Below are positions 19,574 through 30,593 of a stretch of 64,000 nt of DNA, piece by piece. The notes beneath the pieces were generated by a model, which saw only the letters and a program-made list of their open reading frames with translations, was not told the origin of the DNA and made no database searches. Made by a program: the position numbers and the translations under genes. Every line of letters begins with the position of its first letter. Position 1 is the stretch's first letter. Source of the stretch: Polystyrenella longa. Its GTDB lineage: Bacteria; Planctomycetota; Planctomycetia; Planctomycetales; Planctomycetaceae. The stretch covers positions 2,317,001 to 2,381,000 of the forward strand of contig NZ_CP036281.1 of NCBI RefSeq assembly GCF_007750395.1, written 5' to 3'.

Positions 19574-19707
19574 TGTTGTTGTCGCTCTGATTCCCAGATT
19601 TTTCCTGCAGATCAGTGTTTGTCTTATCTCATTCTTATCTCGAATCTCAGAATCACGTGTACTTCTGACGAAGTCTCGGATTGTCGAAATGATATGTGGA
19701 GAACAAC

Positions 19708-20871
19708 ATGAAACAAGCGGTCGTCATAGATGCCGTTAGAACCCCTGTCGCCAAAGCCTCTCCCGATAAAGGAAACTTCAGGGACGTTCGTGCTGAGGAT
19801 CTCTCGGCCCACGCAATCAAGTCGCTCGTTGAACGCTCAGGAATCGATCCTCATCTCGTCGAAGATGTCAAATGGGGTTGCGTACAGCAACAAGGTGAAC
19901 AGGGGTACGATGTTGGACGTATCGCGTCTCTTATAGCGGGGTTACCGATCGAAGTGGCTGGCGTCACCGTCAACCGGAATTGTGGATCAAGCCTTACTGC
20001 ACTCAACGACGCTGCGATGTATATTGCCGCCGCCAACGATGATATTCAGATTGTGGGTGGCGTCGAGCACATGCATCACGTACCGATGGATAAGGGGTAC
20101 AGCGTAGCCCCTTCTCTCTTGTACAAATACAGTGAAGCGATGATGAACATGGGCGTCACGGCAGAATACCTCTCGATGAAATATCAGGTCGGCCGTGTGG
20201 AACAGGATGAGTTCTCTGCCCGTAGTCATCAACTCGCCGCCGAAGCGACTAAGGGCGGACACTACGAGTCCGAAATCGTACCCACTTGGGGCCGAAATGA
20301 TGAGGGGCACAAGATCTTGATCAAGCAGGACCAGGGGATCCGATACGACTGCAATATTGAAGGACTTGCTTCGTTGAAACCGATTTTCAACCCCGCGGGA
20401 GGATCTGTTACTGCTGGGAATTCCTCCCAGCTAAGTGTGGGGGCGGTCGCCATGTTAATGATGTCCGAATACAGGGCCACGGAACTGGGCTACAAGCCGA
20501 TGGCCAAAGTCATTGCCAATGCCGTCGTCGGAGTCGACCCGTGTGAAATGGGGATTGGTCCGGTTCCTGCTGTCAATAAAGCGCTAGAGCGAGCCGGTCT
20601 GACGATTGACCAGATCGGCGCCATCGAGCTGAATGAGGCATTCGCGGTACAGGCACTGTCGGTTCTCAAGAGTCTCGGAATCGGCGTCGACACCGTCAAT
20701 CTTCGTGGAGGCGCGATTGCGCTCGGGCATCCACTCGGAGCCAGCGGTGCCCGCATTGCCACGACCCTGCTACACCGCATGCGTGATGAAAATGTCAGAT
20801 ATGGCATCGCCACTATGTGTATAGGTCAGGGACAGGGAATTGCCACTATTTTTGAATCTTGCATGGTTTAA
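19708..20871 (+). CDS. Thiolase (acetyl-CoA acyltransferase)
   Basis: 387 residues from the chosen start. Catalytic residues are visible: the acyl-accepting Cys in NRNCGSSLTAL (~90), ELNEAFAVQAL (~315), His in GGAIALGHPLGASGAR (~345) and the second Cys in CIGQGQGIA (~375). It cleaves 3-ketoacyl-CoA with CoA, releasing acetyl-CoA. ATG 19708 is preferred over the in-frame GTG 19696 because GGAG lies at the right distance before it and KQAVVIDAVRTPVAK is the usual thiolase N-terminus. Confidence 0.93.
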   Translation: MKQAVVIDAVRTPVAKASPDKGNFRDVRAEDLSAHAIKSLVERSGIDPHLVEDVKWGCVQQQGEQGYDVGRIASLIAGLPIEVAGVTVNRNCGSSLTALNDAAMYIAAANDDIQIVGGVEHMHHVPMDKGYSVAPSLLYKYSEAMMNMGVTAEYLSMKYQVGRVEQDEFSARSHQLAAEATKGGHYESEIVPTWGRNDEGHKILIKQDQGIRYDCNIEGLASLKPIFNPAGGSVTAGNSSQLSVGAVAMLMMSEYRATELGYKPMAKVIANAVVGVDPCEMGIGPVPAVNKALERAGLTIDQIGAIELNEAFAVQALSVLKSLGIGVDTVNLRGGAIALGHPLGASGARIATTLLHRMRDENVRYGIATMCIGQGQGIATIFESCMV

Positions 20872-20911
20872 ATCATTTCTGGGATGAGGACCGCGCCGGG
20901 GAGTGCTCTAT

Positions 20912-22615
20912 ATGACTACCTATTCCAATCTGGTGTCGATGAATCGCGCGACATGCGCAGAAGCTGGACCACGAACGGCGATCCGTTTCAGGCGTTTCGG
21001 TCGGTACACCGACCTCACATGGAACGAGGTCCGCTCGCAGGCGGACCAGGCTGCCTCCGGCCTCATCCAGTTGGGGATCCAGCCGGGAGACCGCGTTGCG
21101 ATCTTTTCCGAGAACAGGCAAGAATGGATTCTCACTGATCTGGCGATTCTTTCCACGGGAGCTGCTGACGTTGCAATGCATGCACCGCTGGCCCCGGAGC
21201 AGGCGGCTTACCAACTGGAGCACAGCGGGTCACGCGGCGTATTCGTTTCGAATCAACAGCAGGCAGATAAAATCTTCGACGTGATCGATCAGTTGCCCGA
21301 CTTGGAATTCCTGATTTCCTATGAGTCCGTCTCATCCTCCGTCGATGAATCCCGTCTTAAAGTGCTTTCCTGGGATGGCTTGAAGCATCGCGGTTGGTCA
21401 CAATTGAAAGAACTTCGAATCGAAATCGATTTTCGGGAACAATCAATCACCGGGGAGACTCTTGCAACTGTCATTTACACGAGCGGGACAACGGGCCCCC
21501 CCAAAGGGGTGATGCTCAGCCATGGTAACTTAATTACCAATGCCAACGCGGTACTATCAATTTCGGAGATTCACCCCCAATACGTAATATTGAGCTGGTT
21601 ACCTTATAGCCACATCTATGCACGGACGGTCGACCTCTATATCAGTCAGTTGGTGCAGGGAGTCATCGCCCTAGCTGAGTCCGTGGAAACACTCGTCGAC
21701 AATTTGAGGGAAATTCAACCTCACTGGATGACCTCCGTTCCCCGATTTTACGAGAAGTTGTGGAGTAGTATTGAGCGTCTTCCCGAAGAAAAACGCGCTC
21801 CCGCCTTGAAAGGTATATTTGGTCGCCGATTACATCACTTGGCATCAGGAGGAGCGCCACTGCCGAAACAGATCTGTGAGACGTTTAACAATCTGGGAGT
21901 TCCCCTGTTGGAAGGATATGGACTTACCGAAACCTCGCCGGTGATCGCCTTCAATCGATTTGGCCAAGTCAGACCAGGTACTGTCGGGCAAGCAGTTCCG
22001 AGGGTTGAGATTAGGATCGCCGAAGATGGAGAGATCCTCAGTCGCGGACCACATATCATGCAAGGGTACTGGCAGAATCACGAAGCCACCTCGAAAGTGA
22101 TTGTAGATGATTGGTTTCATACTGGAGATATCGGAGAGCTCGACGACGAAGGTTTTCTTAAGATCACTGACCGTAAAAAGGATATCATCGTCACGTCCAG
22201 TGGTAAGAATATCGCCCCGACGGAAATCGAACGTCTGCTCAAAATGGCTCCACTCATTGATCAAGCAGTTGTCTATGGCGACAACCGGAATTTCATTACA
22301 GCGATTCTAGTACCCGCATTTGATCTGCTCGAATCAACGCTGAGAGATCAAGGAGTGCGTTTACAGAGCAAAGCTGAATTCATCGATCAGAAGGAAATTC
22401 TTGAACTGTATACGAAGGTCGTCGAACAACAGATGATCCAGGTGAGCAATCCTGAACGGGTCAGGCGGTTCCTGGTTCTCTCCCGGCCCTTCTCCTTATC
22501 AGAAGACGAGCTAACAGCAACCCAGAAAGTCCGCCGCCGCCACGTCATTGATAAATACCAAGAGGAGCTGAATGCCCTATATACCAATGTCGCTCATCTG
22601 GAAGATAGCGACTGA
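20912..22615 (+). CDS. Long-chain acyl-CoA synthetase (AMP-binding)
   Basis: 567 residues. The adenylate-forming signature YTSGTTGPPKGVMLSHGN is near residue 186, GYGLTETSPV near 335, TGDIGELDDEGFLKITDRKKD near 405 and the C-terminal lid follows. It activates fatty acids to acyl-CoA using ATP, feeding the dehydrogenase, hydratase and thiolase encoded just upstream. ATG 20912 follows GGGGAG by eight bases and is preferred over the GTG at 20903. Last gene of the cluster; a hairpin overlaps its stop. Confidence 0.92.
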   Translation: MTTYSNLVSMNRATCAEAGPRTAIRFRRFGRYTDLTWNEVRSQADQAASGLIQLGIQPGDRVAIFSENRQEWILTDLAILSTGAADVAMHAPLAPEQAAYQLEHSGSRGVFVSNQQQADKIFDVIDQLPDLEFLISYESVSSSVDESRLKVLSWDGLKHRGWSQLKELRIEIDFREQSITGETLATVIYTSGTTGPPKGVMLSHGNLITNANAVLSISEIHPQYVILSWLPYSHIYARTVDLYISQLVQGVIALAESVETLVDNLREIQPHWMTSVPRFYEKLWSSIERLPEEKRAPALKGIFGRRLHHLASGGAPLPKQICETFNNLGVPLLEGYGLTETSPVIAFNRFGQVRPGTVGQAVPRVEIRIAEDGEILSRGPHIMQGYWQNHEATSKVIVDDWFHTGDIGELDDEGFLKITDRKKDIIVTSSGKNIAPTEIERLLKMAPLIDQAVVYGDNRNFITAILVPAFDLLESTLRDQGVRLQSKAEFIDQKEILELYTKVVEQQMIQVSNPERVRRFLVLSRPFSLSEDELTATQKVRRRHVIDKYQEELNALYTNVAHLEDSD

Positions 22616-22646: not shown

Positions 22647-22838
22647 AAACTCATACCATAAAAAACTCAACCGAACTTGAAACACTGCAAGTCAAGAGGA
22701 CTGTGGACACTGACGGCATGTGTTCTCACACGAGTTGGCAAAAACGCTCGTCGCTACGTTCATCGCAACCATTGTTTCCGGTGGTGAGACTGGCGGCAAT
22801 ATTCCATTCGCGAGTGCTACGGCTCAGAGAATAGCTAT

Positions 22839-22873
22839 AGTTCCAAAGTCACCCTCCCCTTCACTTTGGAACT
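22839..22873 (+). promoter_or_regulatory. 11-bp perfect hairpin directly before the transposase start
   Basis: AGTTCCAAAGT (22839-22849) and ACTTTGGAACT (22863-22873) pair perfectly around a 13-nt pyrimidine-rich loop, ending six bases before the ATG at 22880. It could hide the ribosome site in read-through transcripts, as known for several IS, or act as a terminator of incoming transcription. Confidence 0.6.
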
Positions 22874-22879
22874 GATTTG

Positions 22880-23959
22880 ATGGAATCTGTGATGCAGCCT
22901 TGGCAACTGCTTTTCTTTGCTCTGGCAAGTTGGGTGAATCGCGAACAACAACTGGCGATTGAATACCTCAAAACTGAAAATACTATCCTCCGCGATAAGC
23001 TCGGCAATAAACGGGTCCTGCTGAACGATAACGAGCGTCGCCGCCGGGCGGTCAAAGGAAAGCAGCTTGGTCGGAAGTTGCTAAGTGAACTCGGCGCGAT
23101 CTTCACTCCTGATACCATCCTTCGTTGGCACCGAGAGTTGATTGCCCGGAAATGGGACTACTCGTCGAAGAAGAAACGTGTTGGTCGACCTCGTATTCGA
23201 CAGGAGATCGTCAAACACATTTTAAGGTTTGCGAAGGAGAACCCCACGTGGGGAGCCGATCGAATTCAAGGTGCGTTGTCCAATGTTGGTTTTCACATAA
23301 CCGACATGACTGTCAGGAATGTGCTCAAAGCTCATGGCATTGAACCGGTCCCCGACCTCCCTGCCTCGATGTCTTGGCAAACATTCTGGAGAGCTCACTG
23401 GGAAGCGATCTTCGCTGTCGACTTCACGACGGTAGAAGTCTGGACGAAGACCGGTCTAACGACGTTCTACGTCATGGTGGTGATGGAGCTGATGTCCCGT
23501 AAAGTCGAGGTCGCAGGCATCACTACCAACCCGAAGAAACAATGGATAACTCAGATCGCAAGGAACCTCACCGGCGACAATGGTTTCCTGGAAAACGCCT
23601 CCCATCTGATCCTTGATCGCGATACTTGTTTCCAGCCCCTGCGATCTTTTCTGAAGAACCAGACTGAAATCGAACCGGTGCTACTTCCGCCGAAAAGTCC
23701 CAACATGAATGCGTATCTCGAACGATTCATGAGAAGTCTGAAATCGGAATGCCTGAACAAGATGGTCTTCTTCGGCCAGCATTCTCTCGAAAGAGCATTG
23801 CGGGAATACGTTGCTCACTACCATTCTGAACGAAACCATCAGGGACTGGACAACCAGTTGATTGATCCTGGTGAAGAAGTCGGAAGCATCGCAGGTAAGG
23901 TTGAATGCCGCGAACGTCTCGGTGGCCTGCTCAAGTATTACTACCGCGACGCAGCTTGA
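22880..23959 (+). CDS. Transposase with DDE integrase core
   Basis: 359 residues. An N-terminal helical/HTH-like part (LGAIFTPDTILRWHRELI, ~71-88), a helix-turn-helix-like part (RIQGALSNVGFHITDMTVRN split around ~128-147) and an rve-type catalytic core: AVDFTTVE with D181, LILDRDTCF with D246, and NMNAYLERFMRSLKSE with E281, giving the usual D-35-E spacing. The C-terminus repeats GLLKYYYRDAA, which is a useful tag for remnants. ATG 22880 is used; a TTG lies directly before it. Full length with no frame break, so this copy may still be active and could mobilise the decayed ones if their ends are intact. Confidence 0.9.
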   Translation: MESVMQPWQLLFFALASWVNREQQLAIEYLKTENTILRDKLGNKRVLLNDNERRRRAVKGKQLGRKLLSELGAIFTPDTILRWHRELIARKWDYSSKKKRVGRPRIRQEIVKHILRFAKENPTWGADRIQGALSNVGFHITDMTVRNVLKAHGIEPVPDLPASMSWQTFWRAHWEAIFAVDFTTVEVWTKTGLTTFYVMVVMELMSRKVEVAGITTNPKKQWITQIARNLTGDNGFLENASHLILDRDTCFQPLRSFLKNQTEIEPVLLPPKSPNMNAYLERFMRSLKSECLNKMVFFGQHSLERALREYVAHYHSERNHQGLDNQLIDPGEEVGSIAGKVECRERLGGLLKYYYRDAA

Positions 23960-24153
23960 ATCAGCCTCGAATCGATGTCGGTCCCCGTGTTGTGATTCCG
24001 CGATACCGTTGCGCTCGGAAGGTCATTTTTGCATCGAATCTGATAGCAGAGTTCAAGTCGTGAAACGGATCTCGTTCGAAATCTGCCACTCTCCAGAGAT
24101 ATAACCGCTTGGAATCACTCGTTTTCAACGTCGGCTGAATATCTTTACGATAC

Positions 24154-24350
24154 GCGATCAAGACCGTGTTGGCATAAGTCGCTTTGACCTGTTTGCCGGT
24201 TTGCAGCGTGTGGGTGTAGCTGTAGGTGGTTGTTGTGTCGTCCGTTTCGAGATTAATTGCGTCATCAATTTCCCCGACCACCTGCGTATAACGGACCTGT
24301 CGTCCGTAGGCGTCATAGCTGCAAGGCGTTTCATGCCCCAGCGCATCGCC
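24154..24350 (-). pseudogene. RHS/YD-repeat fragment ending in IS sequence
   Basis: The minus strand reads DALGHETPCSYDAYGRQVRY and TTTTYSYTHTLQTGKQVKATY, i.e. YD repeats matching the larger RHS gene at 25-26.9 kb (TTTTYSYTNTLQTAKQVIETY). There is no start, and the frame passes straight into the IS right end at 24153, which adds about 65 foreign residues before a stop at 23961. No toxin tip remains. Confidence 0.75.
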
Positions 24351-24370
24351 ACATCAAGTCGCGATGTTGC

Positions 24371-24931
24371 TCACTCAGGCTCTTGGTATCCTGCTGGTTT
24401 CCACTCGGCAGTAAAGACTTCGTATTCTGGTGGATTTTCATCTTCCATGATCCAGTCGATAATCTTCATGATACTTCCATCATCATCGTAGCTGATTTCT
24501 TGTCGAAAATAATTCGACTCCTTGTCGACATGTCTACGACGTTTTAACCGACCATCGTATCGCCATTCTAGAATCCTGCATTCCCGGTCATCAATAATAC
24601 AGGTGCCTGTCTCGTGCCAGTTAATTATCGAATTACTTTTTACTTTTGATTTCCTTTTCGGTGGTTTGCCATCAGCCATGCGTACGGTTTTCTTAAGACT
24701 GAATGAATCCTGAACTCCTCCATTACGATAATCAATGCTTAATAACATATCTTTTTCTGGAACAACCATGAGTGAATCCACCAACTGTCCCTCTTCGTAG
24801 TTGTCTATGCGGCGACTACCGTTCTTTTCGTGGATACGAATGACCATCTGAGAGTCGTGCCACATGGTATAGATCCCCACAGTGGGAGGGTACCCTGCTT
24901 CTTCAGTTCCATTATCGATTGTGTCACTCAT
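24371..24931 (-). CDS. Candidate immunity protein for the PD-(D/E)xK-like RHS tip
   Basis: 186 residues, charged and soluble (no signal peptide or membrane span), with tandem strand-like segments such as CRILEWRYDGRLKRRR and FRQEISYDDDGSIMKI. No family recognised. The ATG follows AAGGAAG. It lies 93 bases after the stop of the RHS gene with a nuclease-like tip, on the same strand; small unrelated genes in this position of polymorphic toxin loci are usually the cognate immunity proteins. That role is inferred from position only. It is more AT-rich than the RHS core, as expected for a transferred cassette. Confidence 0.65.
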   Translation of the reverse strand: MSDTIDNGTEEAGYPPTVGIYTMWHDSQMVIRIHEKNGSRRIDNYEEGQLVDSLMVVPEKDMLLSIDYRNGGVQDSFSLKKTVRMADGKPPKRKSKVKSNSIINWHETGTCIIDDRECRILEWRYDGRLKRRRHVDKESNYFRQEISYDDDGSIMKIIDWIMEDENPPEYEVFTAEWKPAGYQEPE

Positions 24932-25024
24932 GACTTCTTCCTTATCTTGATTACCTTGAATAAAGATTACTATTCAAAAAGGTCCTTGAAAATCCCCCGG
25001 GGTTACCGTTCCGGGTCAATTACT

Positions 25025-26860
25025 CTAGATTGCTCCTCCCGCCAATGTACTGGTCATTGTCGCTCGTGAAGTAGAGGACTGTATACCGGCATTGAGCGAT
25101 GTAACTGCAGCTCGTGACCATCCGCGTGCGATTGCCAATCCCGTCTGAGCAACCACTCGGATGTTTGGTGCTGATGATACGGCGATTGTATAAAGTTGAT
25201 ACGAAGCGACTTCGGCGAGGGTCACGCCGACCACAAATTCCGCCGCTATTTGCAGATAGTCTGAATAAAAAATAACGCCTTCTATGTTGAACACCATTAC
25301 GGGAACCTCCAAGGTTAAGAATGTATAAAATGGCGTGGGTTCAGGAGGCCACGTTGGATCGGGTGTATATCCGAACCTCGAGAATTGTGCAGCACGCACT
25401 TTCATTTGCGCCTTGGCGGCAATGGTGCCAGTAGGCGACCAGGGTTTGATTTCCATATATTTATATCGATTATGGTCAATAATATCTGGTTTCGCGAACC
25501 AGGCACTTCCAGGAATCCTGTCAGTATCGGTAAAAGAGAGCTTGGCCCACTTACCAAACTCTGTGTCAGGCATTCTATGTGGAAATGTTAATGCATAAAC
25601 GGCCTCAATTTCTGCTTCTACGGCGTATCCAAACGCGGATGTGCCAAAATCAACAAATAACCCACTCGGATCAATCCCATTCACCGGATCGCCGTGTGTA
25701 TACAAATACTTGTGCAGGCTCTGCGGGTCTTTCAGGTTGCCGAAGAACGGGTCCAGTCGGTTAAACGTTCCCGTGGCAAAATCGTAGTACCTTGCTCGTA
25801 AATATTGCTGGCCAATCCGTGAATCAAACAGTTCCCCGGAATACAGGAAGCTGGTGGCGGCATCTGCTTTGTTAAAACCGAGTGATTCTCCATACGCATC
25901 ATACGTGAAGATCTGCGGGATGCTGTTCACGATCGTCACCGCACCGAGCATGTCTGTCAGCATTCTTGTCGAACCGTGACCGTCGTGGAGCATGATGCTG
26001 TTCAGACCGGTCGGGTTCGCACTGTCGTACTTCACTTGCTGCAGAACATCGAGACCGAGCGTGTAAATCACCCGTTCCGTTTCAGACATGCTGTTCAGGT
26101 TGTCAACCGTCACTTCTTCGATGACTTGCGAATACCCCGTATGATTCATCGGATCACTCAGATACGTCGTGGTCTCGTCGGATTCGACTTGCAGCGCTGT
26201 AAGTGGGTCAGTGTCGTGGTCGACTTCCACCTTCTGCGTGGCTTCGACGCGGATACCTTTGTCGTCATACTCGTACGTGGCCGTTTCACGGCGGACGACA
26301 TCACCATTAGAATCGTATGTATCCGTGACGACCTCATCCATGCGACCTTGCAAGTTAAAGCCATAGGTCGTGTTCGAGATGACATCCGTCGAATACGTCT
26401 CGATAACCTGTTTGGCGGTTTGCAGCGTGTTGGTGTAGCTGTATGTAGTTGTTGTATCGTCCGTTTCGAAGTTGGTACCATCGTCAACATTGCCCACGAC
26501 CTTCGTTTCGGTCAGCAATTGATCGGACGTGTTGTAGGTATACGTGTACGTCTCATCGATGTCCAAGTCGAGATCCTGATCGACCGTTTTCTCCAGTCGG
26601 TTACCGACGAGGTCATACGTGTAATTCGCTTCGAAGTCTAAAACATTGTCATGGCTGTCGAAGACTTCGGTGACCAACCGGCCTAAATCGTCATAGGTCC
26701 AATTGAACGTATCCACCAATGGCGTCCCGTTGTTCCAACGGGTCTCGGTAGCAGCCGTTCGTTTGCCGTCTGCCCGCACCGTGTAATCGTAACTAGCCAG
26801 CTTGTCATTGTCAGAAAGATCGTTGGGCGTACTGTCCGGTTCGAAGTCGGGAATGTTCCA
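25025..26860 (-). CDS. 5'-truncated RHS protein with PD-(D/E)xK nuclease-like toxin tip
   Basis: About 611 codons open from a TGA at 26861-26863 (first start-like codon GTG at 26779). N-terminal two thirds: YD repeats (YTYDLVGNRLEKTV, TTYSYTNTLQTA) and the RHS core YLRARYYDFATGTFNRLDPF...GDPVNGIDPSGLF (~360-395), where the tip normally begins. The tip (~200 residues) holds WFAKPDIIDHNRYKYMEIKP: a PD then an E-x-K, the pattern of restriction-endonuclease-fold toxins. After it is a hydrophobic, Ala/Ser-rich end. The full-length N-terminal delivery part is missing, so this is an orphan core-tip module. Candidate immunity gene follows. Confidence 0.8.
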   Translation of the reverse strand, partial: WNIPDFEPDSTPNDLSDNDKLASYDYTVRADGKRTAATETRWNNGTPLVDTFNWTYDDLGRLVTEVFDSHDNVLDFEANYTYDLVGNRLEKTVDQDLDLDIDETYTYTYNTSDQLLTETKVVGNVDDGTNFETDDTTTTYSYTNTLQTAKQVIETYSTDVISNTTYGFNLQGRMDEVVTDTYDSNGDVVRRETATYEYDDKGIRVEATQKVEVDHDTDPLTALQVESDETTTYLSDPMNHTGYSQVIEEVTVDNLNSMSETERVIYTLGLDVLQQVKYDSANPTGLNSIMLHDGHGSTRMLTDMLGAVTIVNSIPQIFTYDAYGESLGFNKADAATSFLYSGELFDSRIGQQYLRARYYDFATGTFNRLDPFFGNLKDPQSLHKYLYTHGDPVNGIDPSGLFVDFGTSAFGYAVEAEIEAVYALTFPHRMPDTEFGKWAKLSFTDTDRIPGSAWFAKPDIIDHNRYKYMEIKPWSPTGTIAAKAQMKVRAAQFSRFGYTPDPTWPPEPTPFYTFLTLEVPVMVFNIEGVIFYSDYLQIAAEFVVGVTLAEVASYQLYTIAVSSAPNIRVVAQTGLAIARGWSRAAVTSLNAGIQSSTSRATMTSTLAGGAI

Positions 26861-26881
26861 TCACATCTAAAATAATATGAA

Positions 26882-27403
26882 CTAAGCGAAATCGTTTGTT
26901 ATGTCATAATCAGGGTTGCCCCAATCAATTTCATAGTTGTTAACTTCATATATAAGTTCTATCGTCGTATCTTTGTCAAATTCATCATACTCATAACTTG
27001 GATCAGAATAGTCACCTCCTACTTTATACATGAATGATATGCCATTTGGATGCTTCATTAACTCGACTGGTGGTTTAGGGTTTCCGTCTGGTGAGAAGAC
27101 GTTCATTGCCCACAGAAAAAGCTCTGATGGTTGCACTTTACGTCCAGGTAAAAAATCGTCAATAATTTCCTCTGTTTTGGAGATGATTTGTGTTTCACTA
27201 CTTAACCAACCGGTTAAAGCTTTTTTGCAAAGCTCCACAACGCGTTCGTTTACAAGCTCACGACGGGAAAAATAAACTGATAATTCATGATTATTGAAAT
27301 TAACTTTAGAAGAATTATCTTCAGTAAACTCTGATGGAGCTATAGAAAAATCACTAACAGTTAACTCTTTCCAGTTTTTCAGCGTATTCAATTCCTTAAA
27401 CAT
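26882..27403 (-). CDS. Candidate immunity protein B (paralogue of the next gene upstream)
   Basis: 173 residues from the start used here. ATG 27403 has GAGGGA ahead of it; an in-frame ATG at 27460 would add 19 residues and has no ribosome site. It shares with the adjacent gene the layout LTVSDF..., RRELVNERVVELCKKAL, GISFMYKVGGDYSD and the end YEIDWGNPDYDITNDFA. Acidic, soluble, no signal peptide. It lies directly downstream of immunity candidate A and before the truncated RHS gene. Function inferred from position and pairing. Confidence 0.65.
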   Translation of the reverse strand: MFKELNTLKNWKELTVSDFSIAPSEFTEDNSSKVNFNNHELSVYFSRRELVNERVVELCKKALTGWLSSETQIISKTEEIIDDFLPGRKVQPSELFLWAMNVFSPDGNPKPPVELMKHPNGISFMYKVGGDYSDPSYEYDEFDKDTTIELIYEVNNYEIDWGNPDYDITNDFA

Positions 27404-27465
27404 TGAAACAAATCCCTCTGAGAAGTACCAGTTCAAGAACTGACTCAAGATATCTTGCATTCGTG

Positions 27466-27963
27466 CTATGCAAAATCGGTAGTGATGTCAAAATCAGAAT
27501 TGTCCCAATCAATATTGTAGTCGTTGACATTAAGCATCAACTCGATGGTACTCTCCTCATTGAAATAATCATTTTCAGAGTCTGAATCAGTATAGTCTCC
27601 AGTCAGTTCATACATGAAAGTAATTGAACATGGCTTCCCTATATGTTCCATCGGGGTGGGATATCCGTCTAACTCATTAACCAGAACTGACCATAGCGAA
27701 CGCTCTTCTGGTTGCACCTCGACTCCAGACATACATAATCCAAGGTATTGCTGGGTTAGATGAGCTATCTTTTTTCCATCCTTCAACCATACTGCTAAAG
27801 CATCCTTGCAGAGTTTCACGACCTGTTCATTAGCAAACTCGCGCCTTGGAATTCGAATCGAGACTTCTTGACCATTGCATTCGACATTGGCAAAGCATTT
27901 CTCGCCCCAAGGGGAATCTTCGAACATGAAATCTCTAGCCGTTAAGTCCTGATATCTTTTCAT
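27466..27963 (-). CDS. Candidate immunity protein A for the HNH-like RHS tip
   Basis: 165 residues. ATG 27963 is six bases after the RHS gene stop region; a start at 27990 would overlap the toxin gene. The sequence starts KRYQDLTARDFMFEDSPWG and ends YNIDWDNSDFDITTDFA, with RREFANEQVVKLCKDAL and SITFMYELTGDYTDSDSE in between. Paralogous to the following gene. Very acidic C-terminus suits binding to a basic nuclease tip (inference). No domain name assigned with confidence. Confidence 0.7.
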   Translation of the reverse strand: MKRYQDLTARDFMFEDSPWGEKCFANVECNGQEVSIRIPRREFANEQVVKLCKDALAVWLKDGKKIAHLTQQYLGLCMSGVEVQPEERSLWSVLVNELDGYPTPMEHIGKPCSITFMYELTGDYTDSDSENDYFNEESTIELMLNVNDYNIDWDNSDFDITTDFA

Positions 27964-27968
27964 TTTGA

Positions 27969-29384
27969 TTAATCCCAACTTCGATGCCAAAGTGCCATGC
28001 CAACATGGTTTTTGACTGCTCGGTGAACCTCAGATTTAATGAGTTCAAATTGTCCTTTTTTATTATGGTGGTGAATAGTATACTTCACTCCATCAATTTT
28101 AACTGTACCATTATCACGACTGTGTGATATGCCTTTCCTCTCCAGCTCTTCACTAACTTCTATAAAATCATGACGTCGCATGTCTAATTTGTCATCTTTG
28201 CTGAGGCTTTCCCAACTTCTTCCTGCTGGAGGACGGGCGTAGTCCGTTACTTTGATTCGATCTTGTAACGCTTTTGGTTTTGTACTTCGAGAAAAGATCG
28301 CGATATCGTCACGGATTTTCCAATGTTTAAACCGTGACACTCGAAACTCTACTCCATCCACCTTGACAGATTGGATTCTACTAAATTTGGCCTTCATTCC
28401 TCTTGAGAGGTTAACAACACTACCTCTGCCTATCGCTCCACTCATAGCTGCCGATGTACCCATCATCATGGGGCCGGGGGCATCTTCCACCGGATCATCG
28501 CCATAGAACTCTTCGTAGGTTAGTTCGTTCGGGTCATCAAAGTCCAAAAAGATGTCTAATGGGTTTATCTCAATGTTAGTGAAGGGGATGCTGATTCCAT
28601 ATGCTCCATAAACACCCCATAGAAGAGCGGCTTTTACCCAAGTGTTATCGTTCCTGCTTCCCCAACTGTCAGGTAAACTGAAATCAGCAGCCCATTCAAT
28701 GTCCCACTGTAAGTTAACGGCATAACCTTCTAGTACTGCTTTGTAGCTCTCCTGTATCCAATCTCCCGGACCAGGCAATGCAATAACTGCGGTCATGATA
28801 CCCGTAGTGGCAAGCATCCCTGTTACGGAAAACATCCCGGTCGGGTCTATTCCGTTCACCGGATCACCGTGTGTGTACAGGTACTTATGAAGACTCTGCG
28901 GGTCGTCTAGGTTTCCGAAAAACGGATCCACTCGATTAAAGCCACCTGTCAGTGCATTATAATAACGGGCTCGCAGGTATTGTTGCTGGATGCGAGTATC
29001 ATACTGTTCGCCACTGTAGAGCAGGCTGGTAATTGCATTGGCTTCACTGAAGCCGATGGCTATGCCGTAGGCATCGTAGGCGAAGATCTGCGGAATGCTA
29101 TTGTAAATTGTGACCGCTGCGAGCATGTCGGTAAGCATGCGGACGGAACCATGACCGTCGTGCAACATGATGCTGTTCAGGCCGGTCGGGTTCGCGCTAT
29201 CGTATTTGACCTGTTGCAGGACATCGAGACCGAGTGTGTAGATCACCCGTTCCGTTTCAGACATGCTGTTCAGGTTGTCAACTGTCACTTCTTCAATGAC
29301 CTGCGAGTAACCGGTGTGGTTCATCGGATCGTTATATGTGCTTCCAACTGCTACAGACTTTCGAAAACCATTGTTCTTCAGCAA
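27969..29384 (-). CDS. 5'-truncated RHS protein with HNH/Endo VII-like (WHH-type) toxin tip
   Basis: 471 residues from TTG. The first ~15 residues come from IS right-end sequence read backwards; from YNDPMNHTGYSQVIEEV on it is nearly identical to the RHS core of the neighbouring gene, with YLRARYYNALTGGFNRVDPFF and GDPVNGIDPTGMF marking the tip junction (~180). The tip (~290 residues) ends in YTIHHHNKKGQFELIKSEVH followed by HVGMALWH, the HH...G...L..vH...H.G pattern of HNH/Endonuclease VII toxins (WHH/LHH groups). So a DNase-like tip is likely. Two immunity candidates follow. Confidence 0.8.
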   Translation of the reverse strand: MLKNNGFRKSVAVGSTYNDPMNHTGYSQVIEEVTVDNLNSMSETERVIYTLGLDVLQQVKYDSANPTGLNSIMLHDGHGSVRMLTDMLAAVTIYNSIPQIFAYDAYGIAIGFSEANAITSLLYSGEQYDTRIQQQYLRARYYNALTGGFNRVDPFFGNLDDPQSLHKYLYTHGDPVNGIDPTGMFSVTGMLATTGIMTAVIALPGPGDWIQESYKAVLEGYAVNLQWDIEWAADFSLPDSWGSRNDNTWVKAALLWGVYGAYGISIPFTNIEINPLDIFLDFDDPNELTYEEFYGDDPVEDAPGPMMMGTSAAMSGAIGRGSVVNLSRGMKAKFSRIQSVKVDGVEFRVSRFKHWKIRDDIAIFSRSTKPKALQDRIKVTDYARPPAGRSWESLSKDDKLDMRRHDFIEVSEELERKGISHSRDNGTVKIDGVKYTIHHHNKKGQFELIKSEVHRAVKNHVGMALWHRSWD

Positions 29385-29420
29385 TATAACCGCTTATGAA
29401 CACTTTTATTCACCGTCGCT
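29374..29420 (+). repeat. IS right-end copy fused to an RHS gene
   Basis: CAGCAATATAACCGCTTATG and TTCACCGTCGCTTGGAT resemble the IS right end. On the other strand it forms the beginning of the truncated RHS frame. Confidence 0.5.
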
Positions 29421-29729
29421 TGGATGCATTTGCGAAACGGGGATTCATCCTCCTATCGTTTCAAAAGCAAAAACATCATCGCCACGCAGTGGCATCTATC
29501 CGTTTCGCACCAGGGGACGAACGGAAGTCGTCAGGCTGTCACTCACGCGAGGGCCAGGGATCGACAGCACTCGTTCGATGTCATCGAGGTTCACCATCAA
29601 TCATACGAAATCCCCCGTAACCACAAACCAACGCAAGACAGCAACCACCAGTTTGGTTTAGACTAAAGCCACCAACAACCGATCACCCAACACATGCCAA
29701 CGACCTGCTATACCGGAGGGAACACCCCC
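29421..29729. other. Gap without a recognisable gene
   Basis: About 310 bases; a few short overlapping plus-strand frames without domains. GGAGGG at 29716-29721 is the ribosome site of the next gene. Confidence 0.35.
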
Positions 29730-30593
29730 ATGCGATACCTTTGCCTGATCTGTCTCCTTATCTGGCCCACCGTAGCCAGCGCAGAAGAATACCGAGGGAT
29801 CTTCTGGAACCTCGAATCGGGAGATTCTGACCCGCAACAACTCGCCCGCCAGATGACAGAGAAAGGAAAGATCGACTTCTGGGGCTTCTCGGAAGTTGAA
29901 AACCAGCGCACTCTCGATATCCTTGAGCGAGCCCTTGAAAAAGCCTCTCCTGGTATCGACTACATCACGAAAATCACCGAGGAGGGAAACGAGGATCGAC
30001 TGGCCTTGATCTACAACTCCCAGCGATTCACGGCCGTTCCGTACTCAGGCCAGGCGAAGGTCGACGACATCGGCGGTCAATTCTTTGAAGTCGACGAGAT
30101 CAACATCAATGGACGCATCCGCCCTGCACTGGGTGTGGAGTTAAAAAGCTCGACCGGCGCACACTTCGTCCTCCTTGTCCAGCACTGGAAATGTTGCGGC
30201 GGTGAAGGTCTCCCGCTAAGGGAGAAACAAGCGATCCAACTCAACGCCTTCGCCCAGCGCAGTCCTCAGCTCCCCCTGATTTCCGGAGGCGACTACAACA
30301 TCCTGTTCAATCGGGGGGGTATGCGACAGACCGCTTTCCGGGAACTCCAGGACCACTGGCAATACCTCTCCCCCAGAACCAGAATCGGCAAGTCACAGCA
30401 CGAATTCGGTTCCCATTCCCGCGGGGCCATACTCGACGGTGTGTTCATCACGCACCGCCCCCAGGACTGGACCCTCCGAACCACCATCATGGAAAGAAAA
30501 GGCTTGGAGGAAGTCAACCGAGGCGGCGAATTCCAAGACAACAGTCGGGACTCAGATCACCGCCCGCTATTAGTAGTGATAGAATGCCATTAG
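29730..30593 (+). CDS. Secreted endonuclease/exonuclease/phosphatase family protein
   Basis: 287 residues with a signal peptide (RYLCLICLLIWPTVASA, cut before EEY). The EEP fold is shown by FWNLESGD, GFSEVEN (metal-binding Glu), VQHWKCC, SGGDYNILFN (GD-x-N motif) and the terminal RDSDHRPLLV (SDH motif). Typical length for small secreted EEP nucleases. ATG 29730 with GGAGGG upstream is chosen; an earlier in-frame start at 29694 would put 12 residues before the signal. Exact substrate (nucleic acid or phosphoester) unknown. No operon partner. Confidence 0.88.
   Translation: MRYLCLICLLIWPTVASAEEYRGIFWNLESGDSDPQQLARQMTEKGKIDFWGFSEVENQRTLDILERALEKASPGIDYITKITEEGNEDRLALIYNSQRFTAVPYSGQAKVDDIGGQFFEVDEININGRIRPALGVELKSSTGAHFVLLVQHWKCCGGEGLPLREKQAIQLNAFAQRSPQLPLISGGDYNILFNRGGMRQTAFRELQDHWQYLSPRTRIGKSQHEFGSHSRGAILDGVFITHRPQDWTLRTTIMERKGLEEVNRGGEFQDNSRDSDHRPLLVVIECH

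Follow-up and report, generated by a model that had tools for sequence, protein, structure and literature searches.

We have identified two RHS core-tip modules, A and B, on the minus strand of the Polystyrenella longa chromosome (GCF_007750395.1, NZ_CP036281.1), where they occupy positions 24155-29345 of the window, the 64,000-nucleotide stretch of DNA that was analysed. The locus is an orphan Rhs module array, a type of locus on record since 2011-2014 and anticipated among polymorphic toxins in general (PMC3150448, PMC3967940, PMC3482391). We consider it probable that these are IS-bounded orphan modules of RHS polymorphic toxins that have been severed from their delivery gene. The tips would be silent for want of an upstream start or export signal; the immunity genes, translatable alone, may still give protection from kin displaying tips of this kind; and replacement of the full-length gene's tip by homologous recombination would now be improbable. 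It is hypothesized that the ancestral tips sat at the ends of giant surface RHS proteins, here one of 9,080 codons with Ig/PKD and RHS parts, and that IS insertions and adjoining deletions severed and dispersed the modules, which are probably relics or dispersed cassettes.

Read from right to left, in the direction of the minus strand, the order is an IS fragment, module A, the ORFs A1 and A2, module B, a further ORF, an RHS scrap and an intact IS (Table 1). A sequence-only reading of the window had described two truncated cores with different tips and ORFs behind them. This anatomy mostly holds, although the IS at both edges had been missed: of the limits then given to the array, 24154 coincides with the right end of an IS, and 29384 is a listed TTG, the first in-frame start of module A, which falls within the IS end fragment. 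The tipless RHS piece of that reading does exist, as 180 bp of RHS sequence beside 24155, but it is itself chimeric by BLAST.

Table 1. Features of the orphan RHS array, of the IS copies at its edges and of the full-length RHS gene (window coordinates unless a locus or genome position is named)
Feature	Coordinates	Strand	Description
IS481/IS3-like element, intact	22650..24155	+	Transposase 22877-23959 (HMM); right end forms the left edge of the array
RHS scrap C, tipless	24155..24332	-	Two fused RHS repeat segments, truncated at the IS end
Immunity candidate of module B	24371..24931	-	186 aa; AGGAAG (ribosome-binding-like) before the ATG; candidate by position only
Module B, truncated RHS core and tip	25025..26857	-	TIGR03696 E=2e-15; 611-codon frame; mosaic core
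Tip B	25025..25660	-	PD-(D/E)xK-like motif by eye; comes after DPVNGIDPSGLF
Immunity candidate A2	26882..27403	-	ORF open to 27460; likely ATG at 27403 behind AGAGGG
Immunity candidate A1	27466..27963	-	Start 5 nt past the module A stop; paralogue of A2
Module A, truncated RHS core, linker and HNH-like tip	27969..29345	-	TIGR03696 E=1e-13
Tip region A	27969..28835	-	Linker and HNH-like nuclease; IHHHN..KGQFELI..VH..VKNHVGMALWH
IS right-end fragment	29362..29443	+	Oriented like the left copy; right edge of the array
Full-length RHS gene	L011:3453 to L012:10674; genome 5738452-5765673		Single frame

The host genome is one contig of 6.13 Mb that is 99.95% complete, and it contains exactly six RHS cores: one full-length gene and five truncated modules. 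Besides A and B, truncated cores are found at 5.593, 5.598 and 5.610 Mb, in frames of 876, 589 and 1,023 codons, respectively. The full-length gene spans 27 kb in a single frame of about 9,080 codons, and its protein combines Ig-/PKD-like repeats, RHS repeats and its own C-terminal tip. It lies 3.4 Mb from the array (5.74-5.77 Mb vs 2.34 Mb).

The RHS-associated core domain TIGR03696 scores over the cut-off in both A and B, and the reading frames of A (474 codons) and B (611 codons) run without internal stops. Both modules carry the boundary motif DPVNGIDP[ST]G[ML]F, and the alignment of A with B collapses beyond it. In enterobacteria, orphan rhs-CT/rhsI "silent cassettes" consist of a truncated core, a PxxxxDPxGL boundary, a variable tip and a downstream immunity gene; they are without start or export signals, and their tips recur on full-length genes of other strains (PMC3150448; PMC3967940). 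The P. longa modules resemble them in truncated cores, boundary motif, variable tips and downstream ORFs. The boundary reads PVNGIDPSGL in B and PVNGIDPTGM in A (final residue M), and both modules are gene fragments without start or export signals, their cores being cut to about 165 and 390 codons. IS elements can interrupt orphan modules, as stated for CDI orphans (PMC3150448; PMC3967940). Unlike the enterobacterial orphans, the P. longa array is bounded by the ends of one IS, its modules are 3.4 Mb off and show 64-67% rather than about 95% DNA identity, and a 9,080-codon Ig/PKD-RHS protein serves as carrier, in a genome in which no T6SS sheath gene was found. Polymorphic toxins in general form arrays of tips and immunity genes in which cassettes become attached to a constant 5' body through recombination, and planctomycetes are named as carriers of several HNH toxin families (PMC3482391). 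In contrast to such general cassettes, the immunity candidates and tip B of P. longa have no Pfam/NCBIfam match. GC3 is 62-64% in the cores, 43-53% in the tips and 31-43% in the immunity candidates (tip B, 43% vs 64% in its core; A2, 31%), a drop from cores to tips and ORFs that is as expected of swapped cassettes.

The tip of module A resembles HNH nucleases, with Pfam matches to Colicin-DNase (E=2e-4; 22.5 bits, cut-off 25) and WHH (E=1.4e-3; 18.8 bits, cut-off 25.1) that both fall under the curated cut-offs. A relative in the sister genome G001, 36% identical across the whole tip region, terminates an RHS frame at least 1,579 aa long. The linker and histidines are kept between the two (IHHHN..KGQFELI in tip A and WHHDA..KGRLQLI in G001, followed by NHVG[ML]ALWH). 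Since the scores lie below the family cut-offs and the histidine pattern is common with G001, tip A is labelled HNH-like only, which is how it had been described at the outset; the G001 relative is the best support for this label. Tip B carries the motif KPDI-x8-YMEIKPW...AQMKV, which reads as PD-(D/E)xK by eye. No Pfam or NCBIfam family and no PDB sequence matched tip B, a search of 392 planctomycete genomes returned only tip B itself, and an AlphaFold model built without an alignment was unusable (mean pLDDT 29). The earlier PD-(D/E)xK-like designation describes this motif, and a nuclease of that kind is putative. PDB sequence searches with tip A, tip B and the immunity pair gave zero matches.

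Directly downstream of each tip, where cognate immunity genes would sit, lie ORFs that are candidates by position. A1 and A2 are 42% identical, in agreement with their earlier description as two paralogous ORFs behind module A. With A2 as the query, one homologue was found among 392 sampled planctomycetes, a stand-alone gene with no toxin beside it. The candidate of module B has no homologue elsewhere in its own genome. The ORFs proposed as immunity genes thus occupy the expected places, but A1, A2 and the B candidate matched no Pfam or NCBIfam family, known immunity families included. A joint structure model of A1 and A2 reached a pLDDT of 53, and Foldseek found no PDB match for it with E under 0.3. 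From place and paralogy we infer a putative immunity role for all three ORFs.

The immunity genes bear on a possible, though somewhat doubtful, reading that is compatible with severed, silent modules: the toxin halves would be debris and the immunity genes would be kept because kin display the same tips. In its favor, a relative of tip A is joined to a long RHS frame in G001, both immunity paralogues are intact, and plausible ribosome-binding sites, read by eye, precede A2 and the B candidate. However, the tips are also intact and without stops, and so are not obviously debris, and the ORF that follows the G001 gene is unrelated, with no homology to A1 or A2.

The cores themselves record a long history. 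Across the 165 codons that A and B have in common, identity is 86% in amino acids and 75.8% in DNA; the two are close (87-92% nt) across about 60 codons only, with a longest exact stretch of 41 bp. The cores had been called near-identical in the sequence-only reading, which describes those 60 codons and not the whole. Among A, B and the 5.593-Mb core, dN/dS is about 0.04 to 0.07 by the Nei-Gojobori method (A vs the 5.593-Mb core, about 0.06), values that are rough because dS is near saturation. The low dN/dS of A and the 5.593-Mb core suggests that they diverged mostly within constrained proteins and were cut off late; a late cut-off is probable for both A and B, since neither frame has decayed. 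A and B would then be old lineages that diverged under constraint. A recent duplication of one module into two was rejected, since dS between the cores greatly exceeds 1.

Module B is a three-part mosaic. At the positions that differ between the 5.593-Mb orphan and the G001 gene, the counts of orphan-like against G001-like sites in B are 112:16 in the upstream segment, 16:64 in the central one and 64:11 in the downstream one (Fisher 3e-23 and 7e-17). The segment limits were set after viewing sliding identities, and the contrast far exceeds the effect of that choice. Past recombination in the B core is strongly supported by this pattern. Scrap C is a second chimera in the array, as BLAST aligns 24155-24254 to the core of the 5.593-Mb orphan (88% identical) and 24238-24332 to an upstream RHS repeat of the giant gene of the sister genome G002 (79% identical). 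That cores recombine had been anticipated, and the B mosaic, together with the tip A relative on a longer G001 RHS frame, indicates that this has occurred.

The transposase at the left edge of the array is IS481/IS3-like by HMM, under the NCBIfam cut-offs, and is therefore assigned to neither IS481 nor IS3. From an alignment of about ten copies, the IS extends from about 22650 to about 24155 and carries imperfect terminal repeats (CCGTAYCGTAAA..TCAGCCG). The right-end fragment at the other edge is 75% identical over 80 bp and scores 55.4 bits, whereas the best of 500 shuffles reached 27.4. Module A has its 5' limit no more than about 20 bp from this fragment, scrap C starts at the right end of the intact IS, and the 5' limits of the orphans at 5.593 and 5.610 Mb are also close to IS copies. 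The transposase has 75 matches in the genome, most of them in the regions 5.48-5.80 and 2.30-2.44 Mb, the latter of which contains the window, and copies adjoin RHS genes in both sister genomes as well. IS copies are often arranged head to tail with truncated ones, separated by a few bases. The array does not have the complete IS copies at both ends of a composite transposon: the left copy is complete and the right copy is an 80-bp fragment in the same orientation.

The left flank of the array (thiolase and ligase; 19696-22615) is conserved in G002 (L083), where the gene after the ligase corresponds to 782-1372 of the window, about 19 kb upstream. Since the gene order differs, one of the two genomes has been rearranged, with its breakpoint at the ligase-array junction. 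G001 and G002 both lack the right-flank gene (29694-30593), and neither the same array nor a clean empty site was found in these two draft genomes.

The simplest account of the truncation is IS-linked deletion and dispersal of the modules. It is partly compatible with another reading that we hold to be possible without favoring it, namely that the modules are functionless remnants of a former full-length RHS locus drifting to loss. The IS at both edges, the chimeric scrap C and an IS-rich, partly decayed neighborhood are what plain debris would leave, but both tips, both cores and the three immunity candidates still have open frames. It is rather unlikely that the IS serves as the vehicle by which RHS tip and immunity modules are cut, moved and shuffled in the genus. 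Recombination between copies would then relocate a whole tip cassette in one step. This suggestion derives from the clustering of copies in two regions and from their position next to RHS modules and giant RHS genes, in both sister genomes as well.

Severed modules could still be of use if their tips were swapped, via the shared core, onto the cell's own full-length RHS gene, as had been proposed from the sequence together with a search for a full-length gene of the same core. One such gene exists, but its core is divergent, at 64.4% nt identity to A and 66.7% to B, with longest exact blocks of 11 bp (A) and 15 bp (B). A, B and the 5.593-Mb orphan match one another better than they match the full-length gene. 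RecA-type recombination needs some tens of identical bases, and with exact blocks of 11-15 bp a direct tip swap is improbable. Given this divergence and the 3.4 Mb between the loci, the swapping proposal is not supported. In Salmonella, an orphan tip was shown fused to the main rhs gene, with which it has 522 bp in common at 95%, the two lying side by side (PMC3967940). The P. longa locus has no such long near-identical stretch, nor does an orphan lie beside the main gene.

We therefore regard an active reservoir as quite improbable, even though the core-tip-immunity anatomy is present, a swap has been demonstrated in Salmonella (PMC3967940), the B core shows past exchange and arms in other planctomycete arrays are about 82-94% identical. 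The anatomy of a store of orphan tips and its past recombination both stand; a ready reservoir for the full-length gene of this genome is unlikely. Recombination with incoming DNA of relatives with closer cores, such as that of G002 (75-76% nt), is conceivable.

RHS cores over the cut-off occur in 69 of 99 related genomes, and many have same-strand tandem core-tip modules (e.g. G069, G073, G067, G068, G097, G063, G021, G001 and G081). In G069 (L086), further core-tip modules, separated by small ORFs, come after an RHS frame of 2,365 aa on the same strand; identity of the arms is mostly 83-94%, and exact blocks in common with the long gene measure 22-50 bp. Arms in G063, G073, G097 and G021 are about 82-91% identical, and in G001, of the same genus as P. 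longa, the long RHS gene and the orphan beside it match at a comparably low level (59% nt identity). Orphan arrays are thus a frequent feature of planctomycetes, and their arms often seem suited to recombination; the P. longa array differs from these. It has core-tip modules in common with the G069 array, which, unlike it, has arms of 83-94%, adjoins a long gene and is recombination-ready. G069 is accordingly a better test case for tip switching. Arms of about 82-94% beside a long gene look swap-ready, whereas arms of 64-67% with IS ends do not, which offers a usable criterion. A second run of similar modules (L087) lies 0.7 Mb from the first in G069.

Orphan Rhs tips have been tested in enterobacteria; the planctomycete layout is alike, with a 9,080-codon Ig-RHS carrier and without VipB. 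The T6SS sheath gene VipB (PF05943) is absent from the P. longa genome, while an E. coli control was positive, and simple T6SS delivery was rejected on this basis. That the orphan tips are expressed at a low level as intracellular toxin-antitoxin pairs that regulate growth is very unlikely. The frames are intact, the spacing of A1 behind module A is consistent with co-translation, and an intracellular growth-regulating role of Salmonella orphan rhs is reported (PMC7043789), but the RHS part of A has no evident start signal, the first in-frame start lying in the IS fragment.

Further toxin modules were observed outside the window. A truncated RHS core at L009:14082-15821 (genome 5.597-5.599 Mb) bears a Tle1-like phospholipase tip (PF09994, E=5e-23), and the lipoprotein-like ORF that follows this module (L009, 12993-13883) is a plausible immunity gene. 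Pretoxin-HINT modules, a second polymorphic-toxin class alongside the RHS orphans, are present in the 5.58-5.62 Mb island (L009:35-2983 and L010:11046-13550), where one bears a Tox-URI2 tip (E=2e-11), and in G001 (L057:7374-8477). The same toxin island encodes a large serine recombinase of 790 aa with Resolvase and Recombinase domains (L009:4518-6890).
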